Shown piece by piece: positions 4,278-51,528 of a DNA stretch of 64,000 nucleotides; positions within the stretch are counted from its first letter, which is position 1, and each line of letters starts with the position of its first letter. The DNA comes from Natrononativus amylolyticus (GTDB taxonomy: Archaea > Halobacteriota > Halobacteria > Halobacteriales > Natrialbaceae), in contig NZ_CP101458.1 in the NCBI RefSeq assembly GCF_024362525.1, positions 2,790,001 through 2,854,000 on the forward strand. The letters are read 5' to 3'. A program made the position numbers and the translations under genes. Under the pieces are notes generated by a model. The model made no database searches, was not told where the DNA came from, and saw only the letters and a list, made by a program, of their open reading frames with translations.

Positions 4278-4350
4278 GGGACCGTGGGTTAGCCTGGTAT
4301 ACTTCGGGCCTTGGGTGCCCGTGACCCCGGTTCAAATCCGGGCGGTCCCA
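4278..4350 (+). tRNA. tRNA-Pro (anticodon TGG)
   Basis: A full cloverleaf can be drawn. The acceptor stem GGGACCG/CGGTCCC is 7 perfect pairs. The D arm is GGTT/TACT with one mismatch. The anticodon stem CGGGC/GCCCG closes the loop CTTGGGT, giving anticodon TGG. The T stem is CCCGG/CCGGG around TTCAAAT, and the discriminator base is A. There is no intron and no encoded CCA. The downstream 110 nt carry inverted and direct fragments of its 3' end (separate entry). Confidence 0.95.
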
Positions 4351-4470
4351 CTATTCTGTGACGAACGGACGTGAGGAACGAATAGTGGAGAGTCCGGATT
4401 TGAACTAGACGGCGACGAACGAAGTGAGCCGACGGCGTAGTTCACAATCTGGGCGGTTCTCTAGTAGCCG
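4330..4470 (+). repeat. tRNA-Pro 3'-end repeat module (inverted plus direct copies)
   Basis: The segment 4330-4356, which is the tRNA T arm, acceptor 3' strand and six following bases, is mirrored at 4380-4405: the outer arms GTTCAAATCC/GGATTTGAAC (10 bp) and CACTATTC/GAATAGTG are perfect and only the middle 7-8 bases diverge. A degraded direct copy follows at about 4440-4463 (TTCACAATCTGGGCGGTTCTCTA). Between the mirrored arms lies the spacer 4353-4385, and before the direct copy lies CGAACGAAGTGAG at 4416-4428. Both of these recur beside tRNA-Arg at 51.2 kb. Confidence 0.85.
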
Positions 4471-46925: not shown

Positions 46926-47456
46926 TCACCCGCCCCACTGCATCAGCACTGACGGGAGCACTTCGGCCTCGAGCGCCAGATGCCCCCATGTCCTGCGGAG
47001 ATCGTGTGGCCCAACGTACAGCCACCGGTCATCGGTATCGTCCTCAGCGAGTTCCGCAGCTGCACTCCCGACCCACCGTCGAACCGTCCGCGGTGTGCCC
47101 TCGAGGACGCGATCGTCGGGCTCGAGTCCCTGCGAGAGAACGCGAACCATTCCGGCGAGCGCCGTGGGCATGGGCGTCTGGCGTTCCTTCTCGCCCGGCA
47201 TCCGCAGGAACCACTGGCCGGTTTCGTCGCCCTGGTAGACGTCTCGAGGGCGGACGTCGGTCGCTTCGCGAACGCGGCAGCCACAGCGAGCCACGAACGC
47301 CAGCGCGACCTGTTTCGTCGGTTCGTCGTCGTACACCGCCAGGAGTCGATCGCGTTCCGTTTCGGTCAGTCGAACTCGTCGACCGTCGGCGGTGTCGTCC
47401 GTCCCGAGTTGCACGTTCTGGTTTCGCCACAGACCGGACGTAAAAGGGTCCCGCAC
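46926..47456 (-). pseudogene. Truncated tyrosine recombinase (integrase)
   Basis: The 176-residue reading keeps the catalytic core of haloarchaeal phage-type integrases: the first arginine in CRVREATDVRPRDV, then the second motif GPHDLRRTWGHLA with H and R. It ends at WGG followed by a stop just where the tyrosine-bearing tail should begin; after the stop, DNYETFQ still looks like the continuation. The N-terminal core-binding domain is also short. Lack of the nucleophilic tyrosine means it cannot recombine, so it is probably a relic of the element that entered tRNA-Arg. Confidence 0.7.
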
Positions 47457-51031: not shown

Positions 51032-51213
51032 CTCCGACGGTCAGCCGGACGGCCAGATCCGGGAACGAAAACCGCCCGGCTGCGAAGGGGGGACGTTCAC
51101 CTGCTGAACGAACTCCCGGATCACAGCGTCGGTTTCACATCTCGATTCTGCCGATTCCGTCGTCGCGGGCGCGACGGTGCGATCTACGGAAAGGTACGAA
51201 ACCGGTTGTGTAC

Positions 51214-51475
51214 GGGCACGATGGGATTCGAACCGAACCCAGGCGGTCGGCCTCACTTCGTTCGGCCGCTGCGACTGGTAGGCTTCGAATCCCACGCGTT
51301 ACGCTGTTCGCTCCTCACCTTCGTTCGTCGCAGAATCACGGGCACGATGGGATTCGAACCACCGGAACTGCGCTCGCTTGCGCTCGCTCGTTCCGTCATT
51401 CGAACCCATCTCGTCCGATTGCGGTCGCTCACATCCGTGAGCGACACCCAATACGGGCACGATGGGATTCGAACC
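51214..51475 (-). repeat. tRNA-Arg 3'-end repeat array
   Basis: The 21-base sequence GGGCACGATGGGATTCGAACC (plus-strand) occurs at 51214-51234, 51340-51360 and, within the tRNA, at 51455-51475. All three copies are also preceded by AC, so 23 bases match. Spacing is 126 and 115 bp. Each spacer contains a partial inverted copy: TTCGAATCCCA at 51284-51294 and TTCGAACCCATC at 51399-51410. The left spacer carries the 33-nt block 51304-51336 and CTCACTTCGTTCG at 51252-51264, both shared with the tRNA-Pro module. Confidence 0.9.
51424..51445 (-). terminator. Hairpin 9 nt beyond tRNA-Arg
   Basis: GTCGCTCAC (51424-51432) and GTGAGCGAC (51437-51445) pair perfectly around a 4-base loop, 9 bases beyond the 3' end of tRNA-Arg. 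It could serve as a transcription end or processing signal, and it is also the palindromic core of the first repeat unit. Confidence 0.55.
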
Positions 51476-51528
51476 CACGACCGTCGGATTAGAAGTCCGA
51501 CGCTCTATCCGGACTGAGCTACGTGCCC
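51454..51528 (-). tRNA. tRNA-Arg (anticodon TCT)
   Basis: The minus strand forms a full 75-base cloverleaf. The acceptor stem GGGCACG/CGTGCCC is 7 perfect pairs. The D stem is GCTC/GAGC. The anticodon stem TCGGA/TCCGA closes CTTCTAA, giving anticodon TCT for AGA codons. The T stem GTGGG/CCCAT encloses TTCGAAT. The discriminator is G. No intron is seen. A GCATAAGC box at about 51553-51560 (plus) is well placed as its promoter. Confidence 0.95.

Follow-up and report, generated by a model that had tools for sequence, protein, structure and literature searches.

The repeated tRNA ends behind tRNA-Arg(TCT) in the window, the 64,000-nucleotide stretch of the Natrononativus amylolyticus genome that we analysed, are one case of a much larger, genome-wide arrangement. 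The chances are about even that this array consists of two copies of a tRNA-anchored haloarchaeal DNA hairpin element, a reading that includes precise insertion and names no enzyme.

The original prediction accurately placed three copies of the tRNA-Arg 3' end at 51211-51234, 51337-51360 and 51452-51475, spaced 126 and 115 bp start to start. The copy at 51452-51475 is the genuine 3' end of tRNA-Arg(TCT) on the minus strand, and the copy at 51337-51360 has 1 mismatch in 24. A 22-mer of this end has three matches in 64 kb, where dinucleotide shuffles give an expectation of 0.00. Along its own strand, the tRNA is followed by the unit 1 insert, T' copy 1, the unit 2 insert and T' copy 2 (Table 1), and each spacer holds the inverted T-arm fragment that had also been claimed, at 51399-51410 (one base short) and at 51284-51296. 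When folded as single-stranded DNA the proximal unit gave z = -5.85 and the distal unit z = -1.78. Arrays resembling this one are present at tRNA-Arg(TCT) in two other genomes (G010 and G020), and the type E core of unit 1 is also found at tRNA-Arg(CCT) in locus L094 and at tRNA-Val(TAC) in locus L100. A search of the array with Rfam 15 returned the tRNA alone above gathering score and no described RNA family. The window also contains a partly decayed unit behind tRNA-Pro(TGG), where the T-loop copy (within 4278-4460) has one extra base (TTCACAATC); this extra base recurs in the tRNA-Phe and tRNA-Lys copies of the same genome.

Table 1. Positions of the tRNA-Arg(TCT) array and of the tRNA-Pro(TGG) unit in the window
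Feature	Position	Strand	Basis
tRNA-Arg(TCT) gene; nt 54-73 at 51454-51473	51454..51528	-	ARAGORN; Rfam RF00005 73.4 bits; coordinates
Unit 1 insert, 95 nt: HP1 + linker + aT + hairpin core	51359..51453	-	DNA fold z -5.85
Unit 1 HP1, stem GTCGCTCAC/GTGAGCGAC, begins right after tRNA end	51423..51448	-	Coordinates, DNA fold
Unit 1 aT, inverted T-arm fragment GATGGGTTCGAA	51399..51410	-	Coordinates, DNA fold
Unit 1 hairpin core, type E, TGACGGAACGAGCG...GTTCCGGTGG	51359..51398	-	Core comparison
T' copy 1, exact tRNA-Arg nt 54-73	51339..51358	-	Sequence match
Unit 2 insert, 106 nt	51233..51338	-	Coordinates
Unit 2 HP1 (TGATTCTGCGACGAACG...)	51305..51338	-	Coordinates
Unit 2 aT, inverted T-arm fragment CGTGGGATTCGAA	51284..51296	-	Sequence match
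Unit 2 hairpin core, type C, CCAGTCGCAGC...GACCGCCTGG	51233..51283	-	Core comparison
T' copy 2, exact tRNA-Arg nt 54-73	51213..51232	-	Sequence match
Further unit, partly decayed, behind tRNA-Pro(TGG); aT 4392-4404	4352..4460	+	Sequence comparison

The plan of a unit is constant across the family. Over about 100 bases without genes, a first hairpin (HP1) is followed by a linker, the inverted T-arm fragment (aT), a core and finally T'. HP1 begins at the tRNA end, most HP1s are stems capped by GARC..GYGA, and the GA-capped hairpin is strand-specific, with 182 occurrences in the sense of the tRNA strand vs 9 antisense. The T loop and the 3' strand of the T stem have their reverse complement in aT, which pairs with T' such that T' forms an arm of the second hairpin. 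Beyond the universal 8 nt, aT follows its own tRNA, with 1.54 mismatches of 4 as compared to 2.37 upon shuffling (minimum 2.21). Cores, which were sorted by eye, fall into a few recurring types.

The T' segment is a copy of nt 54-73 of the tRNA that the unit follows. Specifically, the own tRNA was strictly the best fit for 89 of 91 copies, with a mean of 0.1-0.5 mismatches of 13 vs about 7 for other tRNAs. The left edge of the duplication is abrupt: nt 42-52 are at background, G53 is invariant and nt 54-56 match at 100%. When the core pattern was located without use of the acceptor part, 48 of 79 T' copies were perfect over nt 62-73, where random pairing gives about 7 mismatches. The mismatch rate of T' is 15-19% at nt 71-73 vs 0-10% at nt 62-70, as is expected if the hairpin arm alone is maintained.

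The GARC-N-GYGA cap (for example GAGCGAAGCGAG and GAACGAAGTGAG), with its tandem G-A mismatches, is likewise found in flanking DNA beyond the units; possibly this hairpin motif is general among haloarchaea. Readings of HP1 or the core by eye as a K-turn or as an H/ACA or C/D guide RNA were rejected, since the loop position pairs (GARC..GYGA) and no ACA or box D is apparent. In the second tRNA-His unit at locus L100 the type C core lies between aT and T' in reverse orientation, which would fit a flip of the hairpin loop.

Copies of a tRNA's own 3' end are frequent downstream of tRNA genes. Counting matches with at most 5 edits in 20 within 230 nt of the tRNA, a rule under which a few counted matches are weak (4-5 edits), we found such a copy behind 24 of 43 scored tRNA genes in the Natrononativus amylolyticus genome, 26 of 40 in G010 and 22 of 41 in G027, all three being complete sets, as well as behind 10 of 24 sampled tRNAs in G140. 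Control windows 600-2700 nt downstream contained a copy in 9 of 452 cases. The copies at the 24 tRNA genes of the Natrononativus amylolyticus genome lie 55-190 bp 3' of the tRNAs; an own-end search of this genome placed those of many tRNAs at 75-190 bp, with almost none farther off. One further copy, at tRNA-Asn, is not in the score, as this tRNA does not pass the T-loop filter. Membership of the GTDB and 'rel' sets, which were scored in the same way, was decided by matches, and their counts are not frequency estimates. The number of units per tRNA ranges from 0 to 5, the maximum being at tRNA-Gly in G010 (L087). Overall, about half of the tRNA genes carry a unit in the complete sets examined.

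The family appears to be haloarchaeal. The pattern of the type A core matched at least 120 stretches in GTDB genomes; among those listed, all are haloarchaeal by title except for one (L176), which comes from a metagenome-assembled genome labelled only as Euryarchaeota. At 80 loci that were examined, all matches with sufficient upstream DNA follow a tRNA gene on the same strand. These tRNAs represent many isotypes in many genera, T' usually fits the tRNA in question, and different genera can have identical cores at different tRNAs. A phylum survey with this pattern gave matches in 15 of 43 haloarchaea, a lower bound as the type A pattern is blind to other core types, and in 0 of 204 other genomes. 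A viral origin of the units was discarded upon finding no match to the type A and C core patterns among 2.9 million viral contigs. The methanogen that we checked has just adjacent tRNA genes and no units, and in one haloarchaeon with a GC content of about 48% (G033) none of the 30 scored tRNAs has a unit.

Comparison of related genomes shows the tRNA end to be the exact point at which a unit is present in one genome and absent from another. For example, tRNA-Val(CAC) is followed by 0, 1 or 2 units among 29 genomes of one genus. At empty sites (L331 and the site in the Natrononativus amylolyticus genome) the flank comes directly after the tRNA, and at a filled site (L309) the tRNA is followed by a unit, T' and 13 nt before the flank that is shared with empty sites over 150 bp. 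These 13 nt resemble the tail of another copy. Such filled and empty pairs fit gain or loss alike. The part of the original prediction that made the tRNA 3' end the site of the event stands, and it is whole units that are gained or lost precisely there.

Units also change within arrays. Unit types alternate in G010, Natribaculum and Natronobiforma (L087, L152 and L238), as is expected from recombination between T copies, and recent exact tandem duplications of units were observed at four loci (L086, L114, L169 and L179). A nearest-neighbour comparison had indicated strong spread of cores within a genome, which proved to be a bias from unequal numbers; with equal sampling the effect became small for cores and was reversed for HP1. 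Specifically, the likeness of HP1 was 0.69 for the same tRNA across genomes vs 0.63 within a genome, and cores scored about equally with other tRNAs of the same genome (0.72) and with orthologous tRNAs (0.70). HP1 being nearer at the same tRNA across genomes indicates that much of the family is vertically inherited. From these sequence comparisons, HP1 appears to track the locus and cores appear to be exchanged. The genomes compared contain no direct case of a unit transposing to a new tRNA. Near-identical units stand behind tRNA-Lys(TTT) and tRNA-Lys(CTT) of the Natrononativus amylolyticus genome (L050 and L053), where the tRNA 3' ends are identical, which suggests that these units were exchanged between the two loci.

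We also considered whether the conserved stems are maintained as DNA or as RNA. Mismatches in unit stems are G·T and A·C in a ratio of 88:76 overall, as compared to 70:6 in the tRNA-stem control. By stem, the ratios are 17:13 in HP1, 60:38 in aT:T' and 11:25 in the inner stems, such that a lean to G-U is seen in aT:T' taken by itself (p 0.03) and the opposite lean in the inner stems (p 0.03). Stems kept as RNA would tolerate G-U over A-C, so the missing G-U excess favours a DNA-level structure. Pairing is nevertheless kept as the sequence changes, as seen for HP1 at tRNA-Val(CAC), where GTCGC/GCGAC, GCGCC/GGCGC, GCTGC/GCAGC and GCCGC/GCGGC are all found. These sequence patterns point to a structure maintained at the DNA level, where either selection would act on a folded strand or template switching would mend quasi-palindromes; the missing G-U excess would also arise if template switching during replication keeps quasi-palindromes perfect.

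One alternative, which we regard as unlikely, is that a unit is a functional RNA, the structured 3' trailer of the tRNA transcript, in which pairing of aT with the T arm or with T' could check folding, terminate transcription or switch 3' processing. The units do lie directly downstream of tRNAs on the tRNA strand, HP1, which has a strand-specific motif, begins at the tRNA end, and the strand bias of this GA-capped motif would equally suit RNA. In addition, unit stems are kept through sequence change, aT, T and T' co-vary (at L168 and L304 TCTGCC is changed to TCCGCC in the tRNA, aT and T'), and hairpins can end transcription in haloarchaea (PMC7237163). However, the mismatch ratios given above differ from those of tRNAs, units are patchy at tRNA-Val within one genus and absent from all scored tRNAs of one haloarchaeon, and core types are interchangeable, with one even inverted.

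We consider it similarly improbable that the arrays are products of neutral mutation around the T arm, in which tandem slippage and template switching would give rise to duplications and quasi-palindromes and keep them uniform, with neither a dedicated enzyme nor a function. The DNA-type mismatch pattern, the exact recent tandem duplications and the alternating unit orders all count in favour of such a process. It does not readily account for an edge at nt 54 that is sharp in every tRNA, for the recurrence of core types at unrelated tRNAs across genera or for the confinement of units to haloarchaea among the genomes tested.

In regard to how a hairpin element could arrive behind a tRNA, we favour a site-specific event at the DNA level, which would recognise the universal T loop, insert a unit and duplicate the 20 bp up to the tRNA end. 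Targeting of the T loop together with a 20-bp duplication would make any tRNA a possible target, leave the tRNA intact, ensure that the copy is always its own and allow arrays to grow. By analogy with known systems, the likely substrate would be a folded single strand in which T' is paired with aT, and tandem arrays would lengthen or shorten via recombination between T copies. We tentatively propose, as a possibility that we hold to be somewhat improbable in this full form, a putative dedicated recombination system of haloarchaea whose substrates would be folded single-strand DNA cassettes and whose insertion sites would be tRNA 3' ends, with the T loop as target, a 20-bp duplication and CRISPR- or integron-like tandem arrays in which the tRNA end serves as repeat. 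Our searches gave no enzyme, free form, autonomous relative or terminal inverted repeats for the units, and Cas1 (PF01867) is absent from the Natrononativus amylolyticus genome under a search in which control genomes gave matches; an enzyme of this kind may have been present in the past.

Several known systems share features with the units. Casposons and CRISPR-Cas1 resemble them in a tRNA 3'-end target, target duplication and the possibility of tandem growth. Casposon duplications are 14-15 bp and, at tRNA-Leu in M. mazei, take in no more than the final 4 bp of the tRNA (PMC6977970). The filled and empty sites and the 20-bp duplication of the units would fit such an insertion, but this duplication has another length and covers another part of the tRNA, and the units show no terminal inverted repeats. 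Integron attC cassettes and IS200/IS605 ends are folded single-strand substrates, with the IS200/IS605 ends containing a guide, a hairpin and a cleavage site. The units resemble these in being an imperfect hairpin with a site in its foot, a variable core and an array behind a fixed site; specifically, the aT:T' foot with its variable core folds as an imperfect hairpin with a presumed crossover position. In contrast to these systems, the units have no linked integrase or transposase and no cargo gene, and the repeated site is the tRNA itself. This likeness is offered as an analogy and not as membership. Like MITE, REP and ERIC sequences, the units are short, non-coding, palindromic and present in many copies per genome. 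Unlike these, they occur only behind tRNAs, among matches with adequate upstream DNA, and contain a tRNA-specific copy. The pattern matches revealed no shared terminal repeats, autonomous parent or dispersed sites. The mechanism is putative, and a MITE-like heading could yet prove right for the units.

Searches of the open-access literature gave no description of this unit family, with passing remarks alone on duplicated haloarchaeal tRNA ends. One such remark notes partial tRNAs adjoining full copies in Haloferax gibbonsii (PMC7921747) and is probably a sighting of the same copies, but the main text of that paper does not deal with unit structure, the inverted piece, breadth or dynamics. We rank the unit family as a new kind, because each known class that we considered and that was open to testing fails in a defining feature. 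If a dedicated enzyme is involved, the units would represent a new route of site-specific DNA insertion, and if a host RNA or DNA structure is involved, they would represent a new layer at tRNA genes. This question is directly testable, since sister species provide both occupied and unoccupied sites.

Mobile DNA classically integrates at the ends of tRNA genes, and the usual annotation for a copied end is a scar left by a virus or island. Our results mean that many haloarchaeal tRNA-end copies are something other than such scars, and that the units will be misread by tools in which repeated tRNA ends serve to call integrated elements. The att repeats of tyrosine-integrase elements (pHK2/SNJ2-type haloarchaeal elements and genomic islands) likewise consist of a direct repeat of a tRNA 3' end, leave the tRNA intact and can occur in tandem, and genuine integrase elements are common at the tRNAs that carry units (L124 and L332-L335). 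The units differ from these repeats in measuring about 100 bp without genes, in their fixed nt 54-73 and in their hairpins and inverted T-arm piece. Intact elements at tRNA-Val (L333, L334 and L335) have distal copies of 26-34 nt that start well 5' of nt 54, extending into the T stem or beyond, and are preceded by an integrase reading frame; no HP1, aT or core stands beside their att copies. This agrees with the earlier remark that serial integration into attB leaves the inverted fragments unexplained. An older copy in the Natrononativus amylolyticus genome (L332, tRNA-Ala) begins near nt 55, so the boundary alone cannot tell old scars apart.

Integrase elements are also found between a tRNA and its unit or unit remnant (L124, L332 and L335, and apparently L003 in G020), which places the element between the tRNA and the array. 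For example, a 3-kb integrase element parts the tRNA from its unit in Haloterrigena salina (L124). The suggestion that the copies are att ends of serially integrated elements was not supported, given the fixed nt 54-73 and the lack of an adjoining integrase at most units; nor did the distal copy that had been sought as the other att turn up, as there is no further copy of the tRNA-Arg 3' end in the 64-kb window. With unit size and plan constant at tRNAs of many identities, we regard serial integration of tyrosine-integrase elements into attB followed by loss of their interiors as very improbable, even with a truncated integrase 3.7 kb from the window array.

This truncated tyrosine recombinase reading frame (46926-47456) matches PF00589 with an E-value of 1.2e-5, just under the curated cut-off, and has no distal att copy in the 64-kb window. 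The L332 element (G000:C1:2465600-2475000) is 8.2 kb long and separates tRNA-Ala(CGC) from an orphan unit with tRNA-Ala ends. At L003 in G020 (contig C1) a two-unit tRNA-Arg array lies 20.3 kb from tRNA-Arg(TCT), as if a large element had inserted. Finally, about a dozen tRNA-like genes are clustered within 2.7 kb in G027 (G027:C1:2635124-2637763), looking like a virus- or element-borne tRNA set.
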